Virus record (IMG/VR): IMGVR_UViG_3300023178_000074
Span: 1 to 48,453 of that record
Direction: 5' to 3' (one strand)
Length of the DNA stretch: 48,453 nucleotides
Source: a virus
Each line of letters begins with the position of its first letter. The first letter of the stretch is position 1. The position numbers and the translations under genes were made by a program. Below are positions 4,641 through 45,461 of the stretch, piece by piece. The notes beneath the pieces were generated by a model. That model saw nothing but the letters and a program-made list of their open reading frames with translations, did not search any database and was not told the origin of the DNA.

Positions 4641-4889
4641 ATGAAATTATTTTTGGCATTGAGCGCAGTGGCACTCATCGCAGTAGGCTGTACAGCACCT
4701 CAACCTGCAGTTGAAGGACCTTACTTCATGCAGCACGACGATCACGATAAGATTTGCTACACCCGTGGCACAGATGTTATTTGTGACTACCACGAGCATA
4801 ACAAACCAGAGGCACCAGCACCTCATCATCACCAATCAGTGAAGAAGCACGATCAATACCATGATCACAATCATTCCCACGAAGGATGA
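4641..4889 (+). CDS. His-rich small lipoprotein
   Basis: 82 residues with AGGAG before the ATG, a short signal and a lipobox (AVGC, Cys at residue 17). The mature part contains a CYTRGTDVICDY segment with two Cys and a C-terminal tail crowded with His and Asp (HHHQ, HDQYHDHNHSHEG). Such a tail would bind divalent metal ions; whether it buffers metal, or is only a soluble linker, cannot be told. The gene end overlaps the next start by 29 bp. Confidence 0.8.
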   Translation: MKLFLALSAVALIAVGCTAPQPAVEGPYFMQHDDHDKICYTRGTDVICDYHEHNKPEAPAPHHHQSVKKHDQYHDHNHSHEG

Positions 4890-5673
4890 TACAAGGGAAA
4901 AAGTTTGGATCTTTGGAGATAGCTTTGGAGATCCATGCTTTTCCCACATACCATATACATATACCTACCAACTTAACCATCAGTATCAAGTAAGAAATTA
5001 CTGTCTTAGTGGATCATCACCCATAAGGATGCTGAATGAACTTTTTAAGAAAATTATAAAACATAAACGAAAACTTGAACAGCTAAAAGATATAAATTTA
5101 ATTTTTTTATTATCTTATGCTCATAGATTTGATTTTAAGCCATTTGAGGCTAGTGAAGCTAGTAATTTTGCACATATGTTTTATAGAACTAGAGAGGAAT
5201 CTATAATTGAAATTAAAGACGCAGAGAAATATTTACCTTGGTATAAATGGGCTAAGATATATGCTCGGCATCATCGAATTCCTTATAATGTTGATGAAAT
5301 AGATGAAATTCGAAACTTACAAACATTAATTGCTCAAGGAAAATTATTTAAAAAGGTTCTTGTTATACAAGTTCCACAACTGCCACTAAATGAGTCTTCT
5401 AGTTATACAGACATGTTTTTAAAAGCAAATAATGAACATATATTTGATAATGTGAGCGTCAATCAAGGACCTGGTCTGGAGACTTATATGAATATGCCAT
5501 ATACTGATTCACTCTTCGTCACTCATGAGATAAATCTCTCCCCCAATCATCTGTCAGAAACAAATCATCATCTTTTTTATAATGCGCTGTCATTATGGAT
5601 AAATAAAACTGAAGCTAGTTCATTTAGCACAACGGTTCTAAAGCAAGAAATATTTCCTCTTGACTTTAGATAA
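4861..5673 (+). CDS. SGNH/GDSL-like protein
   Basis: 270 residues. The N-terminus has VWIFGDSFGDP (GDS at residues 19-21), the nucleophile block of SGNH hydrolases, after a short beta strand. Near the C-terminus is SPNHLSETNHH, which resembles the final catalytic block but lacks the usual Asp at the DxxH position, so activity is uncertain. The base composition is more AT-rich than its neighbours, suggesting recent acquisition. A second SGNH-like protein is encoded at 31509. In glycan contexts such proteins de-acetylate or acetylate sugars; the substrate here is unknown. Confidence 0.65.
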   Translation: MITIIPTKDDTREKVWIFGDSFGDPCFSHIPYTYTYQLNHQYQVRNYCLSGSSPIRMLNELFKKIIKHKRKLEQLKDINLIFLLSYAHRFDFKPFEASEASNFAHMFYRTREESIIEIKDAEKYLPWYKWAKIYARHHRIPYNVDEIDEIRNLQTLIAQGKLFKKVLVIQVPQLPLNESSSYTDMFLKANNEHIFDNVSVNQGPGLETYMNMPYTDSLFVTHEINLSPNHLSETNHHLFYNALSLWINKTEASSFSTTVLKQEIFPLDFR

Positions 5674-6748: not shown

Positions 6749-6822
6749 GCCCCGTTAGTTAAATGGTATAACAGTAGATTTGTAATCTTCCGTTACTAGT
6801 TCGATTCTAGTACGGGGCTCCA
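6749..6822 (+). tRNA. tRNA-Thr (anticodon TGT), CCA encoded
   Basis: Acceptor arm GCCCCGT pairs with ACGGGGC, followed by discriminator T and encoded CCA. The anticodon loop is TTTGTAA, giving anticodon TGT (reads ACA). The anticodon stem has one T-T mismatch (4 of 5 pairs). The T-loop TTCGATT is canonical. It lies between gp32 and uvsX and presumably supplements host decoding of ACA codons in the AT-rich phage genome. Confidence 0.93.
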
Positions 6823-6843: not shown

Positions 6844-7911
6844 ATGGCAAAGGCTTTTGACCCATCAAAGTTTCGCAAAGAACTGACTAAATCTATCTCA
6901 GGTATGAGTACAGGATTTAATGATCCTACTGATTGGGTTAGTACAGGAAACTACGCACTAAATTATTTGATATCCGGCGACTTCTATAAAGGAATACCTC
7001 TAGGTAAAGTGAGCGTATTTGCAGGAGAGTCAGGCGCTGGTAAAAGTTATATTTGTGCTGGCAATATTGTAAAAGCCGCACAGGAACAAGATATCTTCGT
7101 TGTGCTAGTAGATAGTGAGAACGCACTAGACGAAGAATGGCTACGCAATCTAAATGTAGATACATCCGAAAGCAAACTGCTAAAACTCAATATGAGTATG
7201 ATTGATGATGTAGCTAAAACAATCTCTGTCTTTATGGATGACTTCAAAAAGCTAGACGGAGAAGACAAACCCAAAGTATTATTTGTTATTGACTCACTAG
7301 GTATGTTGCTAACTCCAACAGATGTTGATCAGTTTGGCAAAGGCGATCTAAAAGGTGATATGGGTAGGAAACCTAAAGCACTAACAGCCCTAGTAAGAAA
7401 TTGTGTCAATATGTTTGGTAGCCATAACGTAGGACTTGTAGCAACTAATCATACATATGCATCTCAGGATATGTTTGATCCGGATGATAAAATTTCAGGC
7501 GGACAAGGATTTATTTACGCCTCTTCTATTGTAGTAGCGATGAAAAAGCTAAAGCTAAAAGAAGATGAGGATGGAAATAAAACCTCAAATGTAAATGGCA
7601 TTCGTGCTGCTTGTAAAGTTATGAAAACACGATATGCTAAACCGTTTGAAGGAGTACAAGTTAAGATTCCGTATGAGACAGGAATGGATCCGTATAGTGG
7701 ATTAGTGGATCTATTTGAGAAGAAAGGATTGCTTGTAAAGGATGGCAACAGACTACGTTACACAGACTCTGCAGGAGTAGAGCATAAAGAGTATCGCAAG
7801 GCATGGACTGGTGAGCGACTAGACATGATTATAAATGATCTACCCAATCGTCCTCTTGAGCTAAATATACCATATGTTGAAACTCAAGAGGAGATAACAC
7901 AAGATGAATGA
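6844..7911 (+). CDS. uvsX: RecA-like recombinase UvsX
   Basis: Strand-exchange ATPase of T4-type recombination-dependent replication. The 355-residue protein carries Walker A GESGAGKS (61-68), a Walker B-type strand LFVIDSLG (from 146), and a segment GLVATNHTYASQ typical of the RecA/UvsX L2 neighbourhood. AAGGA precedes the ATG. It overlaps the next small gene by 8 bp and is followed closely by UvsY, its loading factor; the two genes work together with gp32 upstream. Confidence 0.96.
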   Translation: MAKAFDPSKFRKELTKSISGMSTGFNDPTDWVSTGNYALNYLISGDFYKGIPLGKVSVFAGESGAGKSYICAGNIVKAAQEQDIFVVLVDSENALDEEWLRNLNVDTSESKLLKLNMSMIDDVAKTISVFMDDFKKLDGEDKPKVLFVIDSLGMLLTPTDVDQFGKGDLKGDMGRKPKALTALVRNCVNMFGSHNVGLVATNHTYASQDMFDPDDKISGGQGFIYASSIVVAMKKLKLKEDEDGNKTSNVNGIRAACKVMKTRYAKPFEGVQVKIPYETGMDPYSGLVDLFEKKGLLVKDGNRLRYTDSAGVEHKEYRKAWTGERLDMIINDLPNRPLELNIPYVETQEEITQDE

Positions 7912-8116
7912 ACAGCTCATTGTTGATACATGGACTTTATTCAAAGATCATTTAGATAAAAAGAATCTACCTGCTGTAGCAGAACAGTTTGTTGAACTAT
8001 GTGCTGACTACGGGGTAGATGATCCAACGTTAAAAACTGTATTAGGCAACTGTCCTTATTTGGATCACGCAATTGCTTACTACTTGGACGAACCTGACCT
8101 CGAATACGATGAGTAA
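7904..8116 (+). CDS. Small conserved protein between uvsX and uvsY
   Basis: 70 acidic residues, helical, no motif of known function. It overlaps the end of uvsX by 8 bp and precedes uvsY by 2 bp, so translation is coupled. I recall a similar small ORF (containing 'VDTWTLFK' and 'AIAYYLD') in T4-like cyanophages, function unknown. Confidence 0.8.
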   Translation: MNEQLIVDTWTLFKDHLDKKNLPAVAEQFVELCADYGVDDPTLKTVLGNCPYLDHAIAYYLDEPDLEYDE

Positions 8117-8118
8117 AT

Positions 8119-8577
8119 ATGGCAGGATGGTACTCTAGTGTTACTAGAGACGTAAACTCTATACCTAATGCTATTCAACACTTTGAATCAGAACTAGCAC
8201 AAGCTCGTATGGAGTGTAAGCTGAGAGGCTCACTTGAAAAAGCTAGTTCTGAACTTCCAGGTATAGTTGAGCATAGGTTCAATCAGTTACAAGAGATTGA
8301 GGCTATTCTCAACTACCTAAACATAGAACTTCGCAAACTAAGATCCTCATTCTTTAAAAAATATTTAGAAAATTATCAGCGAGCACTGTCTAGTAGAGAT
8401 GTAGAAAAATATGTAGATGGTGAACCTGATGTTGTTGATTTTGAACATATCATAAATGAGTTTGCACTGCTTCGTAATAAATGGCTAGGCGTTATGAAAG
8501 GCTTAGATCAGAAGCAATGGCAAATTACTAACATTACTAAACTAAGAGTAGCAGGTATGGAGGACGCAACATTATGA
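8119..8577 (+). CDS. uvsY: UvsY recombination mediator
   Basis: Helps UvsX displace gp32 from ssDNA. The 152-residue helical protein has the conserved central block of marine UvsY proteins (RSSFFKKYLENY, SSRDVEKYVDG) and the KGLDQKQWQI segment near the end. Length is close to T4 UvsY (137). It directly follows uvsX and the 70-residue protein and overlaps the next gene by the ATGA type. Confidence 0.85.
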   Translation: MAGWYSSVTRDVNSIPNAIQHFESELAQARMECKLRGSLEKASSELPGIVEHRFNQLQEIEAILNYLNIELRKLRSSFFKKYLENYQRALSSRDVEKYVDGEPDVVDFEHIINEFALLRNKWLGVMKGLDQKQWQITNITKLRVAGMEDATL

Positions 8578-9335
8578 TTTACGAATTTCATAGACAGCAT
8601 CGAGGCAACGCAGGAGACTTTTACTGTAACCCTAGCAGATACTTTGCAGATTTTTCTGCCAAGACTTGTCCTATTCAACTTCAAGATAATCCAAGATATC
8701 AAGTAACTGATGCCGAGGGTAAGATTGTTGTTATAGGAGGAGGTGGTTTGATACATCCAACGTTCACAGAGAATATTGAATTTATTGTAAAACAGCAACC
8801 CGCAAAACTCGTAGTCTGGGGTATTGGAACCAATTATGATGTAAATAAGGACAGAGGATATCCTGAATGGCTTGGCAATGCTGATATGATTGGTTTGCGA
8901 GATGCTAACAATATAGGCATTGGCGAATATGTTCCGTGTGTAACTTGTATGCATCCAGCATTTGATAATCCTTATGAAATAAAGCATGACAAAGTATATT
9001 ATCTACACGCAAGAAAAGAAAAGCCAGATGTAGATGCACCTGTACTAACTAACAAGGCAAAAGACATATATAATATTATTCGCTTTTTAGCTTCAGGCGA
9101 AACTGTAGTAACTACTAGCTATCACGGAGCCTATTGGGCTATGCTACTTGGCAGGAATGTTCAAGTAGTGCCGTGGAGCACAAAGTTCAAAACTTTTAAA
9201 TATACGCCTGTAATGTTAGAGTCAATCAATGATGTGTCCAATGACACTATGTATATCCATCCTACATACTTGGAAGAATGTAGAGATCTAAACAAACGGT
9301 TTTATGAGAGATTTAAAAATTTATGTGGGCTATGA
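8574..9335 (+). CDS. Polysaccharide pyruvyl transferase-like protein
   Basis: GT-B-like transferase family that attaches pyruvate to capsule or exopolysaccharide sugars. Visible are VIGGGGLIHP (from residue 53) and the diagnostic VTTSYHGAYWAMLLG near 179-193. Length of 253 residues is on the short side for the family but both signature halves are present. First gene of a glycan cassette; it begins in the stop of uvsY and overlaps the next glycosyltransferase by 32 bp. Confidence 0.8.
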   Translation: MIYEFHRQHRGNAGDFYCNPSRYFADFSAKTCPIQLQDNPRYQVTDAEGKIVVIGGGGLIHPTFTENIEFIVKQQPAKLVVWGIGTNYDVNKDRGYPEWLGNADMIGLRDANNIGIGEYVPCVTCMHPAFDNPYEIKHDKVYYLHARKEKPDVDAPVLTNKAKDIYNIIRFLASGETVVTTSYHGAYWAMLLGRNVQVVPWSTKFKTFKYTPVMLESINDVSNDTMYIHPTYLEECRDLNKRFYERFKNLCGL

Positions 9336-10020
9336 TCCAAGAGAGGACTTAGCATATGAAGTATGTCGCCATAGCATTCTAACACGAACACCTGGCGCTA
9401 CTGTATATCCAATTAAGAAAACAATGTTAGAGAAGTCAGGCTGGTACTGGCGTCCAATAGATAGATTATCATCTACTGAATTTACATTTACTAGATTTCT
9501 AGTACCTGCGCTAACACACTACAGAGGGTGGGCATTGTTTATTGATTGTGATACGCTATTACAAACTGACTTGAACGAACTGTTTGATTTAGCTGACGAC
9601 AAGTATGCTGTAATGGTAGTGAAGCACGACTACACACCACTCAGCCAAACTAAAATGGATGGCAGACTACAAACTGTATATCCACGCAAAAACTGGTCCT
9701 CGGTAATGTTGTTCAACTGTGAGCATCCTTCTAATAAAGTTTTGACTAAGGAACTTATTAGTGACCCATCTAAAGATGGTGGATACTTCCATCGTTTCAA
9801 TTGGCTGCAGGATGATGAGATAGGCGAACTGCATCACGAATGGAACTGGCTTGTAGGGCACTACTACAAACACGATGGATCACCAAAGCTAATACACTAT
9901 ACAGAAGGCGGGCCTTGGTTCAAAAACTATTTTATGCAGGACTTATCAGATGTTTGGAAGGATGAGTATCAACAACTAATGGAGAGAGAATTTACCATCA
10001 AGGACACTGTTGATAAATGA
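9304..10020 (+). CDS. GT-A glycosyltransferase
   Basis: 238 residues with a nucleotide-sugar binding fold: N-terminal strand KIYVGYDPRE, a middle ALFIDCDTLL containing the DxD metal motif (D81, D83), and a later WNWLVG and HYTEGGPW typical of GT8-like enzymes. No membrane segment, so cytoplasmic. It overlaps both neighbours. Likely acts on a host or phage glycan; the sugar is unknown. Confidence 0.75.
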   Translation: MRDLKIYVGYDPREDLAYEVCRHSILTRTPGATVYPIKKTMLEKSGWYWRPIDRLSSTEFTFTRFLVPALTHYRGWALFIDCDTLLQTDLNELFDLADDKYAVMVVKHDYTPLSQTKMDGRLQTVYPRKNWSSVMLFNCEHPSNKVLTKELISDPSKDGGYFHRFNWLQDDEIGELHHEWNWLVGHYYKHDGSPKLIHYTEGGPWFKNYFMQDLSDVWKDEYQQLMEREFTIKDTVDK

Positions 10021-10976
10021 AAACCACTGTTTGTGCCTTCATCAACTCAATACCTCCATCTGCCCGTAGAAGTCACAAAGCAGACTTACTCATAAATTTT
10101 ATCAAAGGAGTCAATGCTAATAAAGACTCTGGCAAAATTTATGACTCTAGATATAATCGCCCCGTCCCAGTTGATGTTGCTGTATTACAAGGCTGGGTGC
10201 ATGAGAATTCCTCAAGAACTCCTCATCTAAATTTTCGTCGTAGTATTATAAAACGACAACAAGACGATAATAAAAATCTTATTGTTATTGATAGTAACCT
10301 GTTTGGTTACAATGTAGATAAGTTACACCCTATGATGTATCATCGTTTTAGCATGGGCGGAGTATTTCCAACTACTGCTAACTATTTTGATACTATTGTA
10401 GATGAGACACGCTGGGATAAGATATCCACAGATTTAGATATAAAAGTAAAGCCATGGCGTAAGTTAGGAAGTTACATCTTACTATGTTGCCAACGCAACG
10501 AAGGTTGGAGTATGAAAGGACTGTCTGTTGTAGATTGGATTCATCAAACAGTTCAAGAGATCCGCAAGCATACAGACAGAGGCATACTTGTAAGAGCTCA
10601 TCCAGGAGACAAACACGCTCATAGATATTTGCGAGAGACAAAGCATAAAATATCTAACAACAAAAGTATCAAAAAGGATTTTGAAAAAGCATGGGCTACA
10701 ATAACATACAATTCTAGTCCAGGTGTAGCCAGTGCTATTGAAGGAGTACCTCTGTATGTTACAGATCCAATTCCACAGACTAGCCAAGCATTTGCTGTAG
10801 CCAATACAGATTTATCTACTATTGAGTCTCCACAAACATTTGATAGAACAGATTGGCTACAGCGATTAGCTATGTGTCATTGGAAAATGGAAGAGCTACG
10901 CAATGGCGATGCTTGGCGACATATGAAACAATTTATCTCCGATAAAGAGCCTTATGTAACCTTAGGGAAGAAGTAA
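10017..10976 (+). CDS. Capsule-biosynthesis-like glycosyltransferase (KpsC/KpsS-type)
   Basis: 319 residues. The second half has the pattern IRKHTDRGILVRAHP followed by ATITYNSSPGVASAIEGVPLYV, characteristic of the capsular Kdo-transferase/KpsS-like GT-B group. A paralog is encoded at 12542-13390 with the same IRKHTDR, NSSPG/NWSSNPG and C-terminal DxxxWL...W..EE/I blocks. The 3' end overlaps a convergent glycosyltransferase gene by 44 bp. Confidence 0.65.
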   Translation: MKTTVCAFINSIPPSARRSHKADLLINFIKGVNANKDSGKIYDSRYNRPVPVDVAVLQGWVHENSSRTPHLNFRRSIIKRQQDDNKNLIVIDSNLFGYNVDKLHPMMYHRFSMGGVFPTTANYFDTIVDETRWDKISTDLDIKVKPWRKLGSYILLCCQRNEGWSMKGLSVVDWIHQTVQEIRKHTDRGILVRAHPGDKHAHRYLRETKHKISNNKSIKKDFEKAWATITYNSSPGVASAIEGVPLYVTDPIPQTSQAFAVANTDLSTIESPQTFDRTDWLQRLAMCHWKMEELRNGDAWRHMKQFISDKEPYVTLGKK

Positions 10977-11682
10977 AGTCTTTATCTTTGTGCTTTGCTT
11001 TTAAATGCCATAGTTTTCCTTGCATTTGATTATTGAATGGGCTTAGTATCTTATCTGGCTTTGGAGATAATTCTCTATAGCTAAAGTCATCTACAAACTC
11101 TCTACACTCACGAATAACTCTACCAAACGAATCTCCATCAAAAGGCTTATACATATTTGAAAAGTCTCGACGATGATAGATGCTGCGATACTTTGCATAG
11201 AACATAGGCTTGTATCTATGCTCTCGATTGATTATAAAGAATCCTGTCTCTACAGAATAGTAACCTTGCTGGGGAACTCCAAAGTGAGCAGATATATTAT
11301 CTGAACTATCATCCCCTATCAAAGAGTGTAACCAAAGGGGTGTAATGTAACCTTCTGAGATTACATCAGCATCTACCCATACTAGATAACCAGTAGAAGG
11401 CTTGAGATGTTCTATAATAGGAAATGCCTTTTTAGAAAATATAGTAGCTCGGCTGTTAGTATGTGTTGCTTTTTGGAATTTATGAAAAGCAGATCCTAAA
11501 TTATTCACATCCTTGATTGTAATTCTAGGATCAGTTATAGGCAAAGTGTCTTCTGTATAAACAGTAAGAGTAAAGCCAGTCCAATACTTCAGCCAAGTTT
11601 GAATCATATAAGTCCCAACCTTGTTGTAATAGTCGAGACTCATACTTGTTACAACATCAAAACTTCCAGTATTTTTCTCCAC
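10933..11682 (-). CDS. GT-A glycosyltransferase-like protein
   Basis: 249 residues with LVWVDADVISEG (DxD at D104/D106) after about 100 residues of alternating beta/alpha, and a later VETGFFIINR acceptor-side segment. Transcribed opposite to the surrounding genes as the second of a two-gene minus operon; its start overlaps the end of the preceding gene by 26 bp. The strand switch inside the plus-strand replication operon marks it as an inserted moron. Confidence 0.7.
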   Translation of the reverse strand: MEKNTGSFDVVTSMSLDYYNKVGTYMIQTWLKYWTGFTLTVYTEDTLPITDPRITIKDVNNLGSAFHKFQKATHTNSRATIFSKKAFPIIEHLKPSTGYLVWVDADVISEGYITPLWLHSLIGDDSSDNISAHFGVPQQGYYSVETGFFIINREHRYKPMFYAKYRSIYHRRDFSNMYKPFDGDSFGRVIRECREFVDDFSYRELSPKPDKILSPFNNQMQGKLWHLKAKHKDKDFTSSLRLHKALYRR

Positions 11683-12502
11683 GCTTCACCATAAGATCTC
11701 TTTTATTGCTTTTACCTGTTTGTTTTCTGTCACCCTTTAGATGATCTAACCAAGTACCTAACACACCATTGATGAGAGGATGTCCTCCCCCACCAGTCTT
11801 TACAGCCACGCTATACATACCAGCACTGTAATCTAACACATCTGGATACATACGCATAAATTTTTCTAAGCAGGAGCCAAACACATAACTATCGTGCCAT
11901 TCATCTAATTTGAATATCCCGTCCTCAGCATTCTCATATTGATATTCAAGATTAGCTACAAACTGTCGTGCTTTAGCGGATTTGCAATCAATCCCATAAA
12001 AGCCACACTCAGGCCATGTCTGAGATCCTTTGCCTCTGCCTACATATGTTAGCCATACATCAGAAGGGAACAGAGATGCATATTGTTCATAGTTCCAGTG
12101 ACTATGCACAACCATGTCAGCATCAATCCATACAACCCAACCTTTGCCAGTATTTCTTTCACAAGCATCAAATACCGCATATACCTTGTTTGCAAATCGC
12201 ATCGCATCCCATTTGAATTTTTTATCATAGTCCCTAGGACGCTTGTGCGGGAAAGGACACTCGCCATTAGCCTTAGGAACCTTGCCCCATTTCTTTTTGA
12301 ACTTCATCAACTTTGGTAATGCTTCCCGTTGATTCAATATTAGAATCTTGCTAGGTGCGGGATTGATTGGATCACAATCCTCAGCATACACTAGCAACTT
12401 CATATTATCATCTGTATTTTGTGCCCATGTGTCTAAGAACTTTTGAGCATAGAGATCTAAACCCTCTTTGTTGAAAGTTGTTACCGCAAGAATGTCTGTC
12501 AT
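11657..12502 (-). CDS. GT-A glycosyltransferase-like protein
   Basis: 281 residues with VVWIDADMVVHSHW (DxD at D127/D129), a GFYGIDC segment, and a His-containing GGGGHPLINGVLGTWLDHLKG end that could be a GT-A C-terminal metal ligand region. First gene of the minus pair; divergent from the plus gene at 12542 across a 39-bp AT-rich gap rich in TATATA that must carry both promoters. GGAG lies before the start on the minus strand. Confidence 0.7.
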   Translation of the reverse strand: MTDILAVTTFNKEGLDLYAQKFLDTWAQNTDDNMKLLVYAEDCDPINPAPSKILILNQREALPKLMKFKKKWGKVPKANGECPFPHKRPRDYDKKFKWDAMRFANKVYAVFDACERNTGKGWVVWIDADMVVHSHWNYEQYASLFPSDVWLTYVGRGKGSQTWPECGFYGIDCKSAKARQFVANLEYQYENAEDGIFKLDEWHDSYVFGSCLEKFMRMYPDVLDYSAGMYSVAVKTGGGGHPLINGVLGTWLDHLKGDRKQTGKSNKRDLMVKRGEKYWKF

Positions 12503-12541
12503 CAGTTTCTCCTGTATATATAGTATATATAAGTATTTAAT

Positions 12542-13390
12542 ATGAAATCATTTAATTTGCACACAAATAATGGAGCACTCAACTCCAAATCTGTATTCGC
12601 TGCCTTCGAGGCTGGAGCTAAACGATTAGGCTACACTGTTTACCATAACTCCGACAAAGGAGATGTAGATGTCATATGGGGCGTCCTCTGGCATGGTAGA
12701 ATGTTGAAGAACAAAGAGATATGGCACAGAGCAGCTCGCAATCGTACACCTGTCATAGTATTAGAAGTAGGTGCTATAGAACGCAATGTCACATGGAAAA
12801 TGGGAGTAGGCGGAGTCAATAACTCAGCTTACTTTGGACCTCGAGCAAACGACAGCAAGCGAGCTGACAAGCTAGGACTAAAGCTAGATCCATGGAAACA
12901 AAACACAAATGGTTCTATACTCATAGCTTGTCAAAACAATAAGTCAGCACAATGGCACGACGAGCAACATCAAGAGCGATGGCTGATGGATACACTAGCT
13001 ACAATAAGAAAACATACTGATAGAAATATTATTGTAAGGCAGCATCCACGATGCCCAATGCGTCTGAGAAACCTACCTGCCAACACTATTCTACAAATAC
13101 CTAAAAAGATTCCTAACACATATGATGACTATGACTTTACTGTTGAGAAGGCATACGCCGTAGTCAATTGGAGTTCCAACCCAGGCATCATAGCAGCAAT
13201 GAAAGGAATACCACTCTTTACTTCCTTTTCGAGCCTAGCGTGGAGCGTGGGTAATCTGGATGTAAATAATATAAACAATCCAGACACACCTGACAGACGA
13301 CAATGGCTGAATGATTTTGCATATACCGAATGGACTACGAAAGAAATATCTACGGGTAAGCCACTAAAACGATTGACAAATATTTTATAA
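12542..13390 (+). CDS. Capsule-biosynthesis-like glycosyltransferase, paralog
   Basis: 282 residues, clearly related to the 10017-10976 product: shared IRKHTDRNIIVRQHP, VNWSSNPGIIAAMKGIPLF, and a C-terminal DRRQWLNDFAYTEW block. No membrane segment. It closes the glycan cassette. The duplicates have diverged well beyond recent duplication, so they probably add different sugars or are alternate versions from separate transfers. Confidence 0.65.
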   Translation: MKSFNLHTNNGALNSKSVFAAFEAGAKRLGYTVYHNSDKGDVDVIWGVLWHGRMLKNKEIWHRAARNRTPVIVLEVGAIERNVTWKMGVGGVNNSAYFGPRANDSKRADKLGLKLDPWKQNTNGSILIACQNNKSAQWHDEQHQERWLMDTLATIRKHTDRNIIVRQHPRCPMRLRNLPANTILQIPKKIPNTYDDYDFTVEKAYAVVNWSSNPGIIAAMKGIPLFTSFSSLAWSVGNLDVNNINNPDTPDRRQWLNDFAYTEWTTKEISTGKPLKRLTNIL

Positions 13391-13420: not shown

Positions 13421-14758
13421 ATGATGACATTTGGACTAGAGGATGTAGATTCTCACGAACCACAGGACCCAGTGACTATTGAAGATTATTTAGATATTAT
13501 ATCAGCTAATAAAAAAATTCTAACAGATCCTGATCAAAAGTTATTCTATAGCTTACACAGACAATCTATGAAGGGTATGGGTTTGACTGAACGGCAGCAC
13601 GAACTGCTAAAACTCAAACTACTTGAATACTCTGAGTGGCTCGAGGCACGCTATCCTGACTTTAGAGAAGACTTGGATCATCTGCGTCACCCATATCGTA
13701 TTATTGATAGAACAAGAACTATCAAAGTAATAGAGCGAGAAGTGCCAGTGTTTGGGGGACTCATCAAAGCTCAGATGATGGCTATACGCTTTCCATTTTC
13801 TAATAAAATGATAAAGCATATTGATTTTATCAAGTCTGTACAAGATAAAAAAATGTACGACAATAAAACAAAGACGCACTTCGTCAAACTAAACGAACGC
13901 AACGCATTAGATATTATCACACACTTCAAAGATTTAGAATTTGATATTGAGCCTCAGCTATTAGAGTATTATGATGAGGTATGTCAAATACAATCTAACA
14001 GTGATACTCATTGCCCTGGTGTATATGATTATCAGTTACGCAATGTTCATCCACGAGTGGTTGAATACGCACATGAAAAGTTTGGCGAACCAGGACCGCA
14101 CAACTTACATTTATATCGAGATGCTGCAGGTATATTAGGACTGTCTCATTTTGATTTGAAAGCTAGTAGAGAAAACGATGCGAAGCTAACACAAGTCAGC
14201 CAAAATATATTATTGAGAACTACTAATCTTTGCTTTGCTTCATCTAAAATATATGGACTAGATCAAATTTTTGAAAGCATACACGAGCTAGATAGATATC
14301 CATTACTCATATCTATGCCAGTATTATCTCGACACGAGTCTGTTTCATTCTATCAAGCTAATGGAATTGATCATGTCTTAGGTCCTGGCGAGTCAGTTCC
14401 TGATATTGTTATCCTAGCCAAGCTACATACATATTTAGAATCATATGTAAAAAATTCTGAGATGGCAGTTTTGTATCGCAAGGATAAGAGATCAATAGAT
14501 GATTGTGAATTTAATAACTATGTCACTAGACACGAACTAAATAATTTACCAACCAAGGACACTAAAGTTATCTTTTTACATCAGCAAAAGAGAATACCTA
14601 AGCCACTGCTTGAATCTAGTTGGAGGCCTAGAACTGTATTGATGCTACGAGCTTCTATCTCTACTAATAGAACTATTACTGTTTTTAGAGAATCAGCAGA
14701 CTTAAACTTAACGTACTCAGATGAATTTTTCACAGGACATCATTACTTTACAATATGA
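13421..14758 (+). CDS. Conserved protein paired with UvsW, possible HARP-like N-terminus
   Basis: 445 residues, hydrophilic, overlapping uvsW by 4 bp (ATGA), so the two are translated together. Around residues 118-175 the pattern MAIRFPFSNKMIKHIDFIK...KKMYDNKTKTHFVKL...NALDIITHF resembles the HARP/annealing-helicase substrate-recognition module (hydrophobic strand, 'YD..TK.W', helix). The second half contains KVIFLHQQKR and RPRTVLMLRAS, but I find no intact Walker motifs. It may be a DNA-structure-recognition partner for UvsW; this is inference. Confidence 0.7.
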   Translation: MMTFGLEDVDSHEPQDPVTIEDYLDIISANKKILTDPDQKLFYSLHRQSMKGMGLTERQHELLKLKLLEYSEWLEARYPDFREDLDHLRHPYRIIDRTRTIKVIEREVPVFGGLIKAQMMAIRFPFSNKMIKHIDFIKSVQDKKMYDNKTKTHFVKLNERNALDIITHFKDLEFDIEPQLLEYYDEVCQIQSNSDTHCPGVYDYQLRNVHPRVVEYAHEKFGEPGPHNLHLYRDAAGILGLSHFDLKASRENDAKLTQVSQNILLRTTNLCFASSKIYGLDQIFESIHELDRYPLLISMPVLSRHESVSFYQANGIDHVLGPGESVPDIVILAKLHTYLESYVKNSEMAVLYRKDKRSIDDCEFNNYVTRHELNNLPTKDTKVIFLHQQKRIPKPLLESSWRPRTVLMLRASISTNRTITVFRESADLNLTYSDEFFTGHHYFTI

Positions 14759-16218
14759 AACCATGTAAACTTGTAATACAAGACGAAGTCAATATCAAGT
14801 TAGAAGGCTTGCCAGTAGATGTAAGACGCAAAATAGCAAACGCTCTAAAGTTTGAAGTTCCATATGCTAGGCATACGCCACACTACAAGCTAGGGCGTTG
14901 GGATGGCAAAGTTCCTTTCTTCAACATAGGAGGAACAGGATATGTCAATCATCTAGGCACTGTGGTAGAGATCCTATCTAAACACAACTACACTATCTCA
15001 GATATTGATGATAGACGGCAGACAATAGACTTACAGTTTCCAACTATTACAGAGAACTATTGGGCGAACCAAGGAGTATGCTGGCCCAAAGGACATCCTG
15101 CTGAGGGTGAAAAAATACTACTACGTGACTACCAGGTAGAAGCGATAAATAATTTTTTAGCTAACCCGCAGTCACTGCAGGAAATAGCTACGGGCGCAGG
15201 TAAAACTATTACCACAGCCACACTCTCACACATAGCAGAACAACATGGACGAACACTTGTCATTGTACCAAACAAATCTCTTGTGCAGCAGACTGAAGAA
15301 GATTACAGAAACTGCGGGCTGGACGTCGGCGTATACTTTGGTGATCGAAAAGACCTTGCCAAAAAACATACCATATGCACTTGGCAGAGTCTTAACATCC
15401 TTGGAAAGAAAAGCAAAGACGCAGAAGTAGAAATAACTCTCGCAGAGTTTTTACAAGGTGTACAAACTATTATTGTAGACGAAGTGCACCAAGCAAAAGC
15501 TGATGTTCTAAAGGCACTACTAACACAAAGCCTAAAGAACGCTGCCATACGATGGGGACTAACTGGTACTATACCAAAAGAAAAATTTGAATTTGAAGCA
15601 CTCCACGCTGCCATAGGTCCTGTAATTGGATCTATTAGTGCTAAGGAGCTACAGGACAAAGGAGTGCTATCACAGTGTCACGTGAACATTCAACAACTAA
15701 TAGACATTGTTGAGCATCGTGACTATCAAAGCGAACTCAAATACCTTGTTACTAACGACAAGAGAGTTGAGTATCTGGCTAGCCAGATCATCAATATTAG
15801 ACAATCAGGTAACACACTCATTCTAGTGGATCGTGTATCCGCAGGTAAAAAGCTACAAGAGCTTGTGCCAGACTCAGTGTTTATCAGTGGCGAAGTAAAA
15901 GTAAAAGATCGAAAAGAGACATATGACGAAGTCCAGGATGCGAGCGACATGGTTATTATTGCTACATATGGTGTAGCAGCAGTAGGCATCAACATCCCAA
16001 GAATATTCAATCTGGTTCTTATAGAGCCAGGCAAATCATTTGTTCGTGTGATTCAGTCTATTGGTAGAGGAATCCGCAAAGCAAAGGACAAGGACTTTGT
16101 ACAAATATGGGACTTCACATCTACTTGTAAATTTGCCAAGCGTCATTTAACTGAACGTAAAAAGTTTTATAAACAAGCCCAATACCCATTTACACTACAA
16201 AAGGTTGACTGGACATGA
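14755..16218 (+). CDS. uvsW: UvsW-like DNA/RNA helicase
   Basis: SF2 helicase that unwinds branched DNA and R-loops and ends origin-dependent replication in T4. The 487-residue protein has an N-terminal DNA-binding domain (to about 120), a Q-motif-like LRDYQVEA, Walker A ATGAGKT (145-151), DEVH (242-245), motif III LTGT (269-272), and domain 2 motifs TLILVDR and VIQSIGRGIRK. Length matches the family. Co-translated with the 445-residue protein upstream and the small protein downstream. Confidence 0.95.
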   Translation: MKPCKLVIQDEVNIKLEGLPVDVRRKIANALKFEVPYARHTPHYKLGRWDGKVPFFNIGGTGYVNHLGTVVEILSKHNYTISDIDDRRQTIDLQFPTITENYWANQGVCWPKGHPAEGEKILLRDYQVEAINNFLANPQSLQEIATGAGKTITTATLSHIAEQHGRTLVIVPNKSLVQQTEEDYRNCGLDVGVYFGDRKDLAKKHTICTWQSLNILGKKSKDAEVEITLAEFLQGVQTIIVDEVHQAKADVLKALLTQSLKNAAIRWGLTGTIPKEKFEFEALHAAIGPVIGSISAKELQDKGVLSQCHVNIQQLIDIVEHRDYQSELKYLVTNDKRVEYLASQIINIRQSGNTLILVDRVSAGKKLQELVPDSVFISGEVKVKDRKETYDEVQDASDMVIIATYGVAAVGINIPRIFNLVLIEPGKSFVRVIQSIGRGIRKAKDKDFVQIWDFTSTCKFAKRHLTERKKFYKQAQYPFTLQKVDWT

Positions 16219-17851: not shown

Positions 17852-18840
17852 GAAAAGGATATCGTACTACACATCTACATTTTCCAGCAGGAGGTGGTGG
17901 TAGGATGCTCCTATCTTTAATATCAAGTATGTATTATAAACATCCTTTATATAAGATAGGTATGGCTGGCGAGGCACATGATATGCATCACAGTACCAAT
18001 CTTGACTTTCGTAAAACTGATAATACGATACCAAAAAAGCCAGAAGATGATTTCTATTGGTGGCATCATATAGATTGGGCTGTCGATCACGAACTTATTA
18101 AGAACTGTAATTACGTTAGGATGGTAGTGACTGACAAAGACACTGAGCAGATAGCTTACCTAAGAATAATAAAAAATTTTATAGGAGATTCTTTAACTTA
18201 CTATCATGAACAACAAGAACCAATTAGTTTAACACTTCGAGAGAAAACAGTTTTCTTATCTTCAGACCCAACAGATATATTACATTGGTATGACGTAGAT
18301 GAGATTTACAAATCGTTTATCAAGATTGGTAGAAAAGTCAGCAAACATCTATCGGGGCATTCGCCAAAGATAAGAACTATGAGTAGGCAAGATGTATGGG
18401 ATTTATCTCACAGTTACAAAGAACCTTTGCCGCTAAATATCTGGCGACTTGAAAAATACTGGCATCAGTATCGAGCTTGGAGAATTATATTAGCACATAG
18501 TAAAAATATTCCTTTAGGAATAAAAGAGATGATAAAGGATCACTTAGTTCATACAAATGAAGATTTAAAATCAACTAAAGATGGAATGCTAAAATATTTT
18601 TCTGAAACTACTTTTGATCCTGTATTGCATTCTACTAACAATACATTGCCTATACATTTTAGAAACATAATGACTAAACCACATTATACTATTAAAACTT
18701 TGGAGAATTTTTATAACAAAAAATTACCTCCTGCATCTAAAAATTTTTACCTTCATTATCTTAAATATAATGAAGAGTTTGCAAAATTATTTTTCCCATC
18801 ATTAAATTGGGGGACAGGTTACATAGATGACGCCGTATAA
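17848..18840 (+). CDS. Sulfotransferase-like protein (copy 1)
   Basis: 330 residues. The N-terminus HFPAGGGGRMLLSLISSMY (12-30) sits where sulfotransferases have their PAPS-binding loop, and the C-terminus LPIHFRNIMTKPHYTIKTLENFY matches the family's 'YEDL..DP..T...L..FLG' ending. Between them is a helix-rich acceptor region with an HWYDVDEIYKSF block. Tandem with a paralog (18827-19834) sharing all three blocks. Composition is more AT-rich than neighbours. Could sulfate a glycan made by the 8.5-13.4 kb cassette; the family call is by pattern only. Confidence 0.6.
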   Translation: MRKGYRTTHLHFPAGGGGRMLLSLISSMYYKHPLYKIGMAGEAHDMHHSTNLDFRKTDNTIPKKPEDDFYWWHHIDWAVDHELIKNCNYVRMVVTDKDTEQIAYLRIIKNFIGDSLTYYHEQQEPISLTLREKTVFLSSDPTDILHWYDVDEIYKSFIKIGRKVSKHLSGHSPKIRTMSRQDVWDLSHSYKEPLPLNIWRLEKYWHQYRAWRIILAHSKNIPLGIKEMIKDHLVHTNEDLKSTKDGMLKYFSETTFDPVLHSTNNTLPIHFRNIMTKPHYTIKTLENFYNKKLPPASKNFYLHYLKYNEEFAKLFFPSLNWGTGYIDDAV

Positions 18841-19834
18841 AACTACACATTTAGATTTTCCCGGAGGGGGTGGTGGTAGAATGCTCTTATTTTTAATATC
18901 AAGCATGTACCAAGAAAGTCCAGAATATACCATTGGTTATCTAGGCGATGCTCATCAAATGGATCATTATAATATACATTATTGTTTTGATCCAGAAGAT
19001 CCTTTCCAGCCAATAAATCAAGTTGAGTGGAGATCTCAAATTGATAAATCGCCTGACTATAAATTTTATTATTGGCATAATATTGGACAACAGTCCAAAC
19101 TTTATTTCCAAAATCAAACTGAAGGGAAATATCTTCAAAACTGTAACTACATTAAGATGCTCGTTACTGAGGATGATTTTGCTCAAATAAATTTCTTACG
19201 AATTATAAAAAATGAATTGGGTGATGGAATGGATTATGTTCGAAAAAGATCTAAGGCGTCACTCAAAATACCATATGAGATTATTCAACTAGGCGATAAA
19301 CCTAATGAGATTATGAGATATTATGATATCAAAAAAATGTATAAAACATTTATTAAGATAGGTAAAAGAGTATGTAACTACCTTGAAAGAAGATATCCTA
19401 TTTTAAAATATATAGATAGGCAAGATATTTTAGATCAATATTCTTCAACCTTACCAAAAAATGATGTATATAGATTTAAGAGACGATACACAACATATCG
19501 TGCTTGGCGTATGATATTATCAGAAGAAACTCTTGAGTTAGGATTGCTGAAACTTTTAAAAGAAAGAATAGATCTTTTTTCTATAGAATATTATACTACA
19601 AAAGATGATCCTGGAAAACTATTTACTGATACTACTAATATATTATTTGTAGACTATCGATCTATAATAACTAACCCAGAAGAGACAATTCAAAAACTAG
19701 AAGAGTTTTATGGTAGATCAATGCCAAGCCCATCTATAAACTTTTATAAAACTTATCTTAGATATAATGAAGATTTAGCAAGTGTGTTTATTCCTTCACT
19801 AAACTGGAAAACAGGAGACTTTAAATGGACATAG
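18827..19834 (+). CDS. Sulfotransferase-like protein (copy 2)
   Basis: 335 residues, paralog of the preceding gene: DFPGGGGGRMLLFLISSMY at the N-terminus, MRYYDIKKMYKTFIKIGKRV in the middle, and FVDYRSIITNPEETIQKLEEFYG at the end, the last being the clearest sulfotransferase-like signature in the pair. It begins 14 bp inside copy 1 and overlaps the deformylase gene by 10 bp. The paralogs are moderately diverged, so the duplication is not recent. Confidence 0.62.
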   Translation: MTPYKTTHLDFPGGGGGRMLLFLISSMYQESPEYTIGYLGDAHQMDHYNIHYCFDPEDPFQPINQVEWRSQIDKSPDYKFYYWHNIGQQSKLYFQNQTEGKYLQNCNYIKMLVTEDDFAQINFLRIIKNELGDGMDYVRKRSKASLKIPYEIIQLGDKPNEIMRYYDIKKMYKTFIKIGKRVCNYLERRYPILKYIDRQDILDQYSSTLPKNDVYRFKRRYTTYRAWRMILSEETLELGLLKLLKERIDLFSIEYYTTKDDPGKLFTDTTNILFVDYRSIITNPEETIQKLEEFYGRSMPSPSINFYKTYLRYNEDLASVFIPSLNWKTGDFKWT

Positions 19835-23661: not shown

Positions 23662-25164
23662 ATGATTACTTGGGGCGTCAGCGCAAACAGTCATAACGCA
23701 TCGCTAACAGCATTCGATGGAGATAAAATTGTATTCTCTAGTCACTCAGAACGATTTAGTAGAATAAAAAACGATCCACATCTAAACAGTAAAATTATAA
23801 ACTATGCTCTACAATGGGGCTACCCTTCTGAAGTAATATGGTATGAAGATCCAATTCTAAAAAGTGTCAGGCAGCTAAAAGCGGGTCAAGGTTGGAAGTT
23901 TGGCGAGAACAATGTTGAAAAGTATATGGCAAAGTATGGCATACACTCTCCCGTGAATACAATGAGCCATCATCAGTCACATGCCGCTGCAGGATACTAC
24001 ACCTCAGGATTTTCAAATGCTACAGTTATAGTAATAGATTCTATTGGAGAATTTGAGACTCTAACTGTATGGGAAGGCACTGGACAGAACCTACATCAAA
24101 TATTCTCACAAGGATATCCACACTCAATTGGTTTATGGTATAGTGCTATGACGCAACGACTAGGACTAAAGCCAAATGAGGAAGAATATATACTGATGGG
24201 AATGGCAGCATTTGGTGATAGCAATAAATATTTTGACGAGATACTAGATACATTTTTTGACTTGACGCCATCTGCTATAGATAATATATTTGGCAAGATA
24301 CCAACTATAAAGCTAAAGCATAATCTACATCGAGGATGCTTATGGTGGAAGCCAGATATGATAGCACACGAATTTGGTGGTCCAACTTTTTGGGCATATG
24401 ATGTGGCAGCAGCAACACAACGAGTCTATGAGATGTTACTTGAGACAATCTCTAGAGAAGTAAAGAGTCGAACTACTAGCAATAACCTAGTCCTTATGGG
24501 CGGGTGTGCTTTGAATTGTAGTGCTAATACTAATATATACAGTATGTGGGATAATGTATGGATTATGCCTGATCCAGGTGACTCCGGTTCATCAATTGGA
24601 TCTGTATTAGCATATAGGGGCAGACATATAGACTGGCCCGGTCCATACTTAGGATATGAAATAGAAGGAACACTAAATTATGACAGAATCATCTCAGAAC
24701 TTGAATCCATCGGACTCTGCGGAATTGCAAGAGGACATGCAGAGATTGGTCCTCGTGCCCTCGGCAATCGCTCTCTTATTGCTGATCCTCGGGATCCAAA
24801 TTGCAAGCGTAGGGTTAACCATATTAAACAGCGGCAAGAGTTCAGACCCTTCGCCCCCGCAATCCTCGCTGAATATGCCGATGAATATTTCGACGGCCCA
24901 ACAGGACCATATATGCAATACACTCCGAAGTGTCGAGAGCCAGAACGTTTCCCAGGCATTGTACACACTGATGGAACCTCAAGAGTCCAAACAGTTACAA
25001 GAGAGGATAACCCTAGCTTTAGAGAATTGTTAGAACTATGGTATGACAAGACAGGCTGTCCTATGTTGCTAAACACTAGCCTAAATATAAAAGGACAGCC
25101 TATGGTAAATGACTTAGGAGACGCACGTGACTTTGAAAAGAAATACGGAGCAAAAGTATTCTAA
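23662..25164 (+). CDS. NodU/CmcH-type carbamoyltransferase
   Basis: Transfers carbamoyl from carbamoyl phosphate to a sugar or small-molecule hydroxyl through a carbamoyl-adenylate. 500 residues with the Kae1-like N-terminal domain (GVSANSHNAS, HHQSHA 103-108, GGCALNC 280-286) and the C-terminal domain signature EIGPRALGNRSLIADPR (361-377) and FRPFAPAIL. All core blocks are present. It separates primase from helicase, ends in the helicase start (TAATG), and likely modifies a glycan or a modified nucleotide; the acceptor cannot be read from sequence. Confidence 0.92.
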   Translation: MITWGVSANSHNASLTAFDGDKIVFSSHSERFSRIKNDPHLNSKIINYALQWGYPSEVIWYEDPILKSVRQLKAGQGWKFGENNVEKYMAKYGIHSPVNTMSHHQSHAAAGYYTSGFSNATVIVIDSIGEFETLTVWEGTGQNLHQIFSQGYPHSIGLWYSAMTQRLGLKPNEEEYILMGMAAFGDSNKYFDEILDTFFDLTPSAIDNIFGKIPTIKLKHNLHRGCLWWKPDMIAHEFGGPTFWAYDVAAATQRVYEMLLETISREVKSRTTSNNLVLMGGCALNCSANTNIYSMWDNVWIMPDPGDSGSSIGSVLAYRGRHIDWPGPYLGYEIEGTLNYDRIISELESIGLCGIARGHAEIGPRALGNRSLIADPRDPNCKRRVNHIKQRQEFRPFAPAILAEYADEYFDGPTGPYMQYTPKCREPERFPGIVHTDGTSRVQTVTREDNPSFRELLELWYDKTGCPMLLNTSLNIKGQPMVNDLGDARDFEKKYGAKVF

Positions 25165-30591: not shown

Positions 30592-31512
30592 ATGGCAAAA
30601 CCTTGCCCACTATGTGCAAGTACAAATACTGAAGAAATTGACTTTGTATCTCGCAAGAGATTGAACGATGCTTATATAGCAGAGTATGGTATAGACATTA
30701 TGGATGATGTCAAAACAGATATGCCACTAGCTAGATGTAACGATTGTGATTTACGCTACTTCTATCCGGCATACCCCGGTGGGCAATCCTTCTATGACAA
30801 GCTACAGCAGTTTGAATGGTATTACAAAGAAGAGAAGTATGAATATCACTATGTAAGCAAAATGTTCAAGGGCACAGGTTCTGTGCTTGAGATTGGTTGT
30901 GGCACAGGTGAATTCAGCTCTCACATTCCTATGCAATTATATAGAGGATTAGAGTTCTCTGAGGTAGCAGTACAAAAAGGAATTGCTAAAGGTAGGAACA
31001 TCTCATCAGAAACTATTGAGGTACACGCTCAGCAGAATCGTGAGAAATATGATGTAGTTTGTTCGTTTCAAGTATTAGAGCATGTTGTAGATCCACAGTC
31101 GTTTATTGCAGCATGCCTAGCTTGTCTAAAGCCTCACGGAGTGCTTATACTAACAACACCTTCAGAAGACTCTTGGTTACAATACAAGCAGGATTTTTGC
31201 CTCAATCTGCCTCCACATCACATTACACGATGGACTGACAGATGCTTCAATAATGTAGCTAAACAATTTAATTTACGACTAGAAGACATACATCACGAAC
31301 CATTGGACGACTTTCATCATCCTTGGTATCTGAATGCGTTTTTTGTGTATATGATAAACAAAAAGCTAGGCATCAAACATTCTGTATTGCGGCAGCCCAA
31401 GCATTGGATATCACATAAAATAAGTGATTGGATTGTAAAGACTATAGGAAAAGATATACCCAATGCCTTCCAAGGTTATGGGCATACAGCGGTAGCAGTA
31501 TTTAGGAAATGA
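30592..31512 (+). CDS. SAM-dependent methyltransferase with N-terminal zinc module
   Basis: 306 residues. N-terminal CPLC (C5, C8) and CNDC (C49, C52) form a zinc knuckle of the kind found in sugar C-methyltransferases; SAM motif I VLEIGCGTGEF at 98-108; FQVLEHVVDPQSF follows as the post-I region. This architecture is usual in deoxysugar or polyketide O/C-methylation. TAAAGGA-type site before the ATG. Overlaps the SGNH-like gene by 4 bp; the two may decorate a glycan. Confidence 0.85.
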   Translation: MAKPCPLCASTNTEEIDFVSRKRLNDAYIAEYGIDIMDDVKTDMPLARCNDCDLRYFYPAYPGGQSFYDKLQQFEWYYKEEKYEYHYVSKMFKGTGSVLEIGCGTGEFSSHIPMQLYRGLEFSEVAVQKGIAKGRNISSETIEVHAQQNREKYDVVCSFQVLEHVVDPQSFIAACLACLKPHGVLILTTPSEDSWLQYKQDFCLNLPPHHITRWTDRCFNNVAKQFNLRLEDIHHEPLDDFHHPWYLNAFFVYMINKKLGIKHSVLRQPKHWISHKISDWIVKTIGKDIPNAFQGYGHTAVAVFRK

Positions 31513-32201
31513 GAATAGTCACGTTTGGGTGTTCCCATACAGCAGGACAAGGTTTAGAAGATGTATATCCAAATACTATGGGTATATCTAAACGTGGCTG
31601 GCCCTCTAAACTAGCCGAACTAAATAATTGTGATATTCTAAATTTAGGCTTTGGCGGAGGATCTAATCTTCGTATATTTCTAGCTTATTCTTATTACGCA
31701 AAACATTTAAGAAAAGATAGAGACATAGTTCTAATACTATGGACATATCCACATCGTTGGACTTTTTTCAATACAGATAAAAATGTTTGGATTGATGCTT
31801 TACCACCAGATAATTTATCAAACATACATCCTAGTCGCCAAGCTGAACATAGGTATTATTATAAGAGATTATATACATCTGAAAATCAAGAAGAACGTTT
31901 ATCAGATTTAGTGTCAGCAGTTAATTCAATACAAAGTATTTGGAAAACACCGTTAGCACATATAGCAGTTAAACAAGAGACATATAATTTATTCCAACTG
32001 CAAAAAATGAAAAATACTGATAGCTGGATTAAATACAACCCTATTGGTTATTGGTATGATTCCATTGGAAATTTTGATTTGAATATGCCTATTAGAGGCT
32101 TAGACAATTTACATTTATCAGAAGAGAGACAACATTATTTTGCGGAGCAAATACAACAACAATGGCTTTGGACAGTAAAACAAGAATTAGGTTGGCAATA
32201 A
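31509..32201 (+). CDS. SGNH hydrolase-like protein
   Basis: 230 residues. N-terminal VTFGCSHTAGQG gives the block I nucleophile (Ser at residue 9), NLGFGGGSN gives the oxyanion-type Gly/Asn block, and the C-terminal DNLHLSEERQHYFAEQI supplies the D..H pair, so all catalytic blocks seem present. Probably an esterase or acyltransferase acting on sugars; co-translated with the methyltransferase upstream. Distinct from the 4861 product, which lacks the late Asp. Confidence 0.72.
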   Translation: MRIVTFGCSHTAGQGLEDVYPNTMGISKRGWPSKLAELNNCDILNLGFGGGSNLRIFLAYSYYAKHLRKDRDIVLILWTYPHRWTFFNTDKNVWIDALPPDNLSNIHPSRQAEHRYYYKRLYTSENQEERLSDLVSAVNSIQSIWKTPLAHIAVKQETYNLFQLQKMKNTDSWIKYNPIGYWYDSIGNFDLNMPIRGLDNLHLSEERQHYFAEQIQQQWLWTVKQELGWQ

Positions 32202-45278: not shown

Positions 45279-45461
45279 TTACTCAGGATGATTAAATCTT
45301 TTAGTTGAGTTATCATATTGTAGTTCCATCTTTACTTGGATCCGCTCTGTGCCATCGCCCTCTTTTGGTATATCACCACAAGCGAGCAGGATGGCACCTA
45401 TGATATAAAACATTACAATTTTGGCTCCTGTTGTGGGAGCGAGTCTGTTGATGAAGTTCAT
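45279..45461 (-). CDS. Small lipoprotein paired with outer-membrane protein
   Basis: 60 residues. Hydrophobic MFYIIGAILLAC gives a lipobox (LLAC), preceded by a 16-residue start that may be translated or skipped. The mature part is polar (IPKEGDGTERIQVKMELQYDN). Its ATG shares a base with the stop of the outer-membrane protein gene, so the two are co-translated and likely work in the same envelope compartment. Confidence 0.72.
   Translation of the reverse strand: MNFINRLAPTTGAKIVMFYIIGAILLACGDIPKEGDGTERIQVKMELQYDNSTKRFNHPE

Follow-up and report, generated by a model that had tools for sequence, protein, structure and literature searches.

A variable island of predicted glycan-modification genes between uvsY and uvsW in a group of marine phages

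What are genes for sugar modification doing in the middle of the recombination genes of a phage? The question is raised by IMG/VR virus record IMGVR_UViG_3300023178_000074, a fragment of an uncultured marine phage, of which positions 1 to 48,453 were analysed (this stretch of 48,453 bases is called the window below). Between the genes for the recombination mediator UvsY and the helicase UvsW, the window carries six genes, named here PyT, GT8, KpsA, GTm1, GTm2 and KpsB, which had been read from the DNA alone as a glycan-modification island. The six open reading frames (ORFs) lie exactly where this original prediction placed them, with GTm1 and GTm2 on the minus strand. They split uvsY from uvsW as predicted, but a seventh, non-glycan gene (g445) is situated there as well. 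The same gene families recur at this address in most relatives, around a conserved core and with a rapidly changing cargo. We propose, with evenly divided confidence, that the island is a phage-borne glycan-assembly locus with exchangeable cargo, which serves the late glycosylation of a virion protein.

A fixed address

Loci for comparison were taken from two scans of viral contigs, with UvsW and with GT8 as the query, and from named phages. The scans comprise the nearest 80 of 599 and the nearest 80 of 440 confirmed stretches, respectively, and the figures given below therefore describe this phage group, not all phages. Gene clusters were derived by MCL on blastp from greedy ORF calls, so that counts are off for some genes that are fused or frameshifted. 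The names KpsA, KpsB and, for a further position, KpsX denote slots numbered from the right edge of the island, and a few genes are mis-slotted, for example in L021.

The genes uvsY and uvsW occur in this order in 95 loci, 70 of which are distinct. The island is present in 61 of these 70 distinct intervals, which were gathered partly by the GT8 search itself, and an island-bearing interval is 6.2-12.5 kb long. The UvsW scan alone, which involves no selection for the island, gives 31 island-bearing intervals out of 37 distinct ones. In the GT8 scan, 78 of the 80 loci also hold uvsX, uvsY, uvsW or gp32. Judged from the sequences, such a recurrence of the same families at uvsY-uvsW exceeds chance, and it bears out the idea of a glycan-modification island within the recombination cluster.

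The island is absent from nine of the 70 distinct intervals. In Pseudomonas phage Paride, 22 bp separate the uvsY and uvsW matches. A homolog of g445 is alone in the interval in five loci (L077, L078, L085, L087 and L088) and is accompanied by one island gene, c3, in L081, while the interval ORFs of phages Phosso and Atu_ph07 fall outside the island clusters. The comparison of presence and absence in relatives, which the original prediction had put forward, thus finds phages with uvsY and uvsW and no island. Part of the island is conserved within the group, though the island as a whole is not strictly conserved in the manner of core replication genes.

Conserved core and exchanged cargo

Across the 61 islands, the last two Kps-family slots are filled in every case (by profile), the GTm2 cluster is found in 60, GT8, alone or fused, in 60, and c3 in 53, and the core genes stand mostly in one order. 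The PyT cluster is found in 7. The c3 protein, which is absent from the window, joins a cytidylyltransferase-like domain to a mannose-6-phosphate-isomerase cupin; ethanolamine-phosphate and glycerol-3-phosphate cytidylyltransferases are among the solved structures nearest to it. The orientation of GTm2 differs between relatives: of 58 last copies, 32 are on the minus strand and 26 on the plus strand. In 12 loci (L010, L014, L024 and nine more) a single ORF of 533-587 amino acids combines GT8 with a Kps-family domain. These fusions, and the joint presence of the families in Pelagibacter phage Mosig and in a second viral group (see below), argue for a functional linkage of GT8, GTm2 and the Kps proteins.

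The cargo was scanned with Pfam using 30 proteins, nearly all of them one per cluster, and some remained unmatched. The matches comprise FkbM, TylF and other methyltransferases, a sulfotransferase, GT25, GSCFA, a second pyruvyl transferase, an epimerase, a UDP-sugar dehydrogenase, a cytidylyltransferase-RraA fusion and a redoxin. A strongly hydrophobic segment is present in only 2 of 588 island ORFs.

The 61 islands hold 52 different sets of non-core cargo, and 4 of the 215 pairs in which UvsW is at least 90% identical share one cargo set. Pairwise identity of KpsB tracks that of UvsW closely (Spearman 0.78). The identities of KpsA and c3 hardly do so (0.09 and 0.18), which suggests that genes are exchanged within the island; the cargo sets and these correlations are the basis of this suggestion. 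Bacterial O-antigen and capsule loci likewise have conserved edge and core genes with swapped transferase and tailoring cargo. By analogy, the island is like an O-antigen locus, and it differs from the bacterial loci in being phage-borne and in that no match to an export, flippase or polymerase protein was found among the cargo clusters scanned with Pfam.

The many cargo sets and the poor tracking of UvsW by KpsA and c3 would also be expected of a recombination hot spot at which passing glycan genes collect without sharing one conserved task. We consider this very improbable. Each of GT8, KpsA, KpsB and GTm2 is present in 60 or 61 of the 61 islands, mostly in one order, KpsB follows UvsW, and the DxD motifs of the glycosyltransferases are invariant in the aligned samples.

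Predicted enzymes and the fold of KpsB

PyT passes the Pfam model PF04230 (31.9 bits, cut-off 25.3), in agreement with its original description as pyruvyl transferase-like, and pyruvyl transfer is predicted for it; no match to it was found among 50,697 phage records. GT8 passes PF01501 (33.5 bits, cut-off 24.3). Its DxD residues D81 and D83 and its C-terminal H198 are invariant in 28 of 28 aligned sequences, and its profile has weak matches only among PDB sequences (E 0.011 and 0.016). The DxD of GTm2 (D127, D129) is invariant in 19 of 19 aligned sequences, and the GTm2 profile gave no match to PDB sequences. KpsA, GTm1, GTm2 and KpsB have no Pfam match above the cut-off. An attempt to name KpsB by sequence failed, as it has no credible PDB sequence match either.

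KpsA and KpsB belong to one family by profile in 61 of 61 islands. The predicted model of KpsB (pLDDT 94.6) superimposes on KpsC with Z 13.8 (232 residues aligned, root-mean-square deviation 3.7), on WbbB with Z 12.7 and on KrkA with Z 10.9; Foldseek also matches it to WbbB (E 1.7e-7). The best other GT-B-type match, 4nes, reaches Z 10.9 as well, and the KrkA match alone is therefore unremarkable. On the strength of this model, KpsB has the modified GT-B fold of the retaining beta-Kdo (3-deoxy-D-manno-oct-2-ulosonic acid) transferases KpsC, WbbB and KrkA. These three represent families GT107, GT99 and GT140, respectively, and are described as sharing an invariant QXXXD motif, in which Asp acts as the nucleophile, and an HP motif that binds cytidine monophosphate (CMP) and takes the form (K/R)XHP in two of the families (PMC10148158, PMC12887879).

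The phage proteins keep one of these motifs and depart from the other. The R and H of RxHP are kept in 61 of 61 KpsB and 61 of 61 KpsA sequences. The Q of QXXXD is also kept, but its Asp is replaced: the motif reads QxxxS in all 61 KpsB sequences and QxxxG in 60 of 61 KpsA sequences, the remaining one having D. In the KpsX slot, K stands for H in 51 of 57 sequences, and 51 of 57 depart at both motifs. The nucleophile Asp is kept in 5 of 57 KpsX sequences and, among 31 further ORFs assigned to the family, in 15 (20 of 88 together). Because the Asp is lost, KpsA and KpsB are not called Kdo transferases here: the fold appears to be kept, as the model indicates for KpsB, and the defining nucleophile is gone from the aligned sequences. 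The original label 'KpsS-like' holds for the fold of KpsB; it could not be supported by sequence, and it fails at the catalytic nucleophile.

Late-type promoters

Genome-wide questions were addressed with six large relatives of 168-358 kb. Five of them contain the capsid gene gp23, and the same five contain a gp55-type late sigma factor (phrog_234 and phrog_12791; the T4 control matched). The phage group is therefore placed, by gene content, in the T4 superfamily. The tail sheath family PF04984 was found in none of the six. Upstream of one late sigma gene (L186, G001 125412-126230) there is a sigma-70-like TTGACA...TATAAT, as expected of an early gene.

In T4-type phages, TAAATA is the element of gp55-type late transcription. 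In a 357-kb relative it is depleted (269 occurrences against about 598 in mononucleotide shuffles), and its extended form precedes 58 of 433 ORFs, including terL, a portal-like gene and several very long ORFs. Counted group-wide over distinct upstream regions, TAAATA precedes several core genes and is rare at replication genes. It is found before KpsB in 41 of 80 cases, minus-strand GTm2 in 32 of 39 and c3 in 45 of 54; the corresponding counts are 0/42 for gp32, 1/64 for uvsX, 2/92 for uvsW, 2/35 for primase and 0/19 for dnaB. GT8 (1/89) and KpsA (0/79) would be transcribed from upstream. These counts per gene carry the argument for late promoters. Of the 61 islands, 59 have a late-type site before one or more of their genes, a figure that is weak alone because some ten genes per island give a site by chance in roughly half of the cases.

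Since the element stands before KpsB and minus-strand GTm2 but before none of 43 plus-strand copies of GTm2, the gap between GTm2 and KpsB would be a divergent late-type promoter in many islands with a reversed GTm2. In the window, only the GTm2 side carries TAAATA (minus strand, 12539-12534), and TATATATA stands on the KpsB side.

The module in other phages and in bacteria

Homologs of GT8, GTm2 and Kps are found together, along with a sulfotransferase, in Pelagibacter phage Mosig. In Caulobacter jumbo phages the module is located between tail genes and lysis genes (phage CcrColossus has homologs of GT8 and Kps), and in two spring-water podovirus records it adjoins the terminase or major capsid genes. 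GT8 is the one slot that is filled in Stenotrophomonas phage DLP6 and cyanophage S-SCSM2R. A second marine group, obtained by a GT8 scan from a podovirus (80 loci), contains GTm2 in 67 loci, a KpsA-type gene in 51, a KpsX-type gene in 32 and FkbM in 22. A search for gp23 in 10 contigs of the second group found it in 0 of 10, without a working control. One pelagimyophage-like contig has a tryptophan-halogenase-like gene between nrdB and ruvC (L211:2378-3949; phrog_2928, E 1e-133).

Bacterial homologs of GT8 (best 80 of 565) come mostly from Alphaproteobacteria, and Kps or GTm2 is seldom found in their vicinity. In a 335-kb contig assigned to a Neomarinimicrobiota metagenome-assembled genome (L289), c5, GTm2, c3, GT8, KpsX, KpsA and KpsB stand in island order; the contig probably stems from a phage and was binned together with bacterial DNA.

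What the island may do

The soluble core, consisting of GT8, GTm2, the Kdo-transferase-fold proteins and mostly also c3, would work in the cytoplasm and assemble an oligosaccharide that is short and probably acidic. The variable methyl-, sulfo- and pyruvyltransferases and other glycosyltransferases would give this oligosaccharide a phage-specific finish. Its acceptor would be soluble, most plausibly a virion protein produced at the same late time. Such an acceptor is proposed because the core genes have late-type promoters, membrane segments are nearly absent, and structural genes adjoin the module in several unrelated phages. Related phages would then carry different sugar coats, as bacteria carry differing O-antigens, and the advantage might lie in escaping recognition by hosts or predators.

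Several observations weigh against this proposal: 1) in the window, PyT, GT8 and KpsA lack a late-type site, and their transcripts would come from uvsX-uvsY, possibly at an earlier time; 2) none of five relatives has TAAATA within 60 bases of gp23, and the motif therefore marks operon heads at best; 3) in the second viral group TAAATA precedes GTm2 in 0 of 33 and GT8 in 2 of 47 cases, which does not support late promoters there; 4) the module lies away from structural genes in Mosig, DLP6 and S-SCSM2R; 5) in two annotated contigs of the second, pelagimyophage-like group it lies beside nrdAB, one of them also having ruvC, as in Mosig.

Alternatively, the island might remodel a host surface glycan (O-chain or capsule) during infection, blocking co-infection by rivals or the re-adsorption of progeny to debris. 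GT8-rich hypervariable islands of pelagimyophages have been read in this way, as changing the host O-chain against co-infection (PMC7029224, in its account of these islands). Bacteria often have close homologs of GT8 (46-59% identity), and the high turnover of the cargo would suit diverse hosts. The island also matches Kdo-transferase folds, GT25, pyruvyltransferases and sulfotransferases, all of which are typical of lipopolysaccharide (LPS) and capsule loci. The late-type promoters before core genes speak against a host target, superinfection exclusion being usually early. So do the near-absence of membrane-type segments and of flippase or polymerase matches in the scanned cargo, although LPS core transferases are soluble too. 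We regard remodelling of the host surface as possible but rather doubtful.

A third target could be the phage DNA, if sugars were placed on a modified base as by the T4 alpha- and beta-glucosyltransferases. The location of the island among genes of DNA metabolism, and of the module beside nrdAB in the two contigs mentioned above, would fit this, and a 2024 report by Pyle is said, by its title, to deal with viral glycosyltransferases that place diverse glycans on DNA. Other observations point the other way. A hydroxymethylase is expected to differ from thymidylate synthase at the PFNIA motif, and the two thymidylate synthases (PF00303) detected among the six large relatives both have an ordinary PFNIA. 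The T4 alpha-glucosyltransferase family phrog_2888 was found in 0 of 6 relatives, whose records may be incomplete (the T4 control matched), and Tet_JBP dioxygenase was found in 0 of 6 in a search without a positive control. Sulfation and late expression would also fit the protection of DNA poorly. Modification of DNA is thus unlikely, and is the least likely of the DNA, host and virion targets. Glycosylation of a virion protein is favoured over both, and we give it about an equal chance of being right or wrong.

Virion glycosylation may be extended, tentatively, to a phage 'serotype locus': a fixed late slot by the recombination genes would accept swapped glycan cassettes, so that the virion coat of each phage would be acidic, methylated or sulfated in its own way. 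The two transferases best conserved in the locus would be relatives of Kdo transferases in which the nucleophile of the double displacement has been replaced, and which might therefore use another chemistry or another CMP-sugar.

The locus and its neighbours

The locus is listed in Table 1. The window also contains terL, a gp32-type single-strand binding protein, a primase and a DnaB-type helicase. A search of phage isolates with the window at the DNA level matched no near relative; by UvsW, the closest isolates are Sinorhizobium phage Phosso (57%), Agrobacterium phage Atu_ph07 (54%) and then Pseudomonas PA5oct-type phages (51%).

Table 1. Features of the uvsY-uvsW locus and its flanks, in window positions
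Feature	Position	Strand	Evidence
uvsX recombinase, left flank	6844..7911	+	phrog_97, E 5.5e-68
g70, conserved small ORF separating uvsX from uvsY, flank	7904..8116	+	
uvsY recombination mediator, island left edge	8119..8577	+	phrog_231, E 2.3e-16
PyT, polysaccharide pyruvyl transferase-like, variable cargo	8574..9335	+	PF04230, 31.9 bits
GT8, GT-A glycosyltransferase (predicted), core	9304..10020	+	PF01501, 33.5 bits
KpsA, Kdo-transferase-like paralog, core	10017..10976	+	KpsB family by profile
GTm1, GT-A-like, variable, distant GTm2 paralog	10933..11682	-	falls in GTm2 cluster
GTm2, GT-A-like glycosyltransferase, core	11657..12502	-	DxD invariant
Putative divergent promoter region between GTm2 and KpsB	12503..12541	.	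late-type TAAATA on minus strand
KpsB, predicted Kdo-transferase-fold protein, core	12542..13390	+	model fold
g445, flank, non-glycan, uvsW neighbour	13421..14758	+	model, helicase-lobe-like C-terminal half
uvsW helicase, island right edge	14755..16218	+	phrog_16, E 2e-75

GTm1 and KpsA are convergent and overlap by 44 bp. The GC content of the six glycan genes, overall and at third codon positions (GC3), lies inside the range of the 23 tabulated window genes, and there is therefore no compositional sign of recent acquisition; the idea of recent foreign DNA was rejected on this ground. Homologs of g70 occupy the same position in most of the compared loci with both uvsX and uvsY, and a tRNA-Thr (tgt) is encoded at 6749-6822, between gp32 and uvsX.

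The g445 protein (445 amino acids, model pLDDT 90.5) was considered as a glycan gene and rejected. The C-terminal half of its model resembles a lobe of SF2 helicases, with TFIIH XPB and T4 UvsW among the matches at Z 8.4-10.5, values that may merely reflect a common structural arrangement; T4 UvsW (1rif) matches residues 233-443 with Z 8.8. The gene evolves fast (median pairwise identity 0.34). As its homologs are kept in six intervals without a full island, g445 is treated, with the support of the model, as a gene of the recombination side.

Some genes elsewhere in the window might be related to glycans. A NodU/Nol-like carbamoyltransferase (23662-25164; phrog_1601, PF02543/PF16861) lies between primase and dnaB and could be a further glycan-tailoring enzyme; of 21 loci with both of these neighbours, 14 have it. 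Three more possible tailoring genes are at 18827-19834, 4861-5673 and 31509-32201. Two of them have Pfam matches below the cut-off (sulfotransferase-like PF00685, E 2e-4; GDSL-like PF00657, E 4e-4), and the ORF at 4861-5673 looks SGNH-like by eye and has no Pfam match. The ORF at 45461-46864 has a weak match, below the cut-off, to an outer-membrane beta-barrel (PF13505, E 4e-4).

Relation to known systems and implications

Hypervariable glycosyltransferase islands of phages and the glycosylation of virions are already known. The host-recognition cluster of pelagimyophages is likewise described as a hypervariable island of the T4 superfamily in which GT8 and LPS-type genes are abundant, but it lies in the structural region, between VrlC and gp14, and includes tail fibres (PMC7029224). 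The island described here lies at uvsY-uvsW, has late-type promoters, and no tail fibre gene was seen in it. Moraphages, which are large aquatic phages, are reported to have putative glycosyltransferases as four of their core orthologous groups, for which their authors offer DNA, host and virion as targets (PMC12619734). The text of that paper does not contain the word uvsX. In mycobacteriophage virions, glycans are reported on capsid and tail tube subunits (Freeman 2023, via PMC12619734). Compared with that description, the present island adds Kdo-fold, sulfotransferase and pyruvyltransferase parts and a high turnover of cargo. Among open-licence papers, no report was found of an island at uvsY-uvsW or of phage enzymes with the Kdo-transferase fold and without the nucleophile.

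Two conserved paralogs have lost the nucleophile of QXXXD, and they offer a natural test of how enzymes with the Kdo-transferase fold work without it. If the virion glycan is indeed varied at a dedicated locus, the surfaces of the particles would be under diversifying selection of a serotype-like kind. This would bear on what recognises free phages at sea, and on how phages with 90% identical recombination genes coexist.

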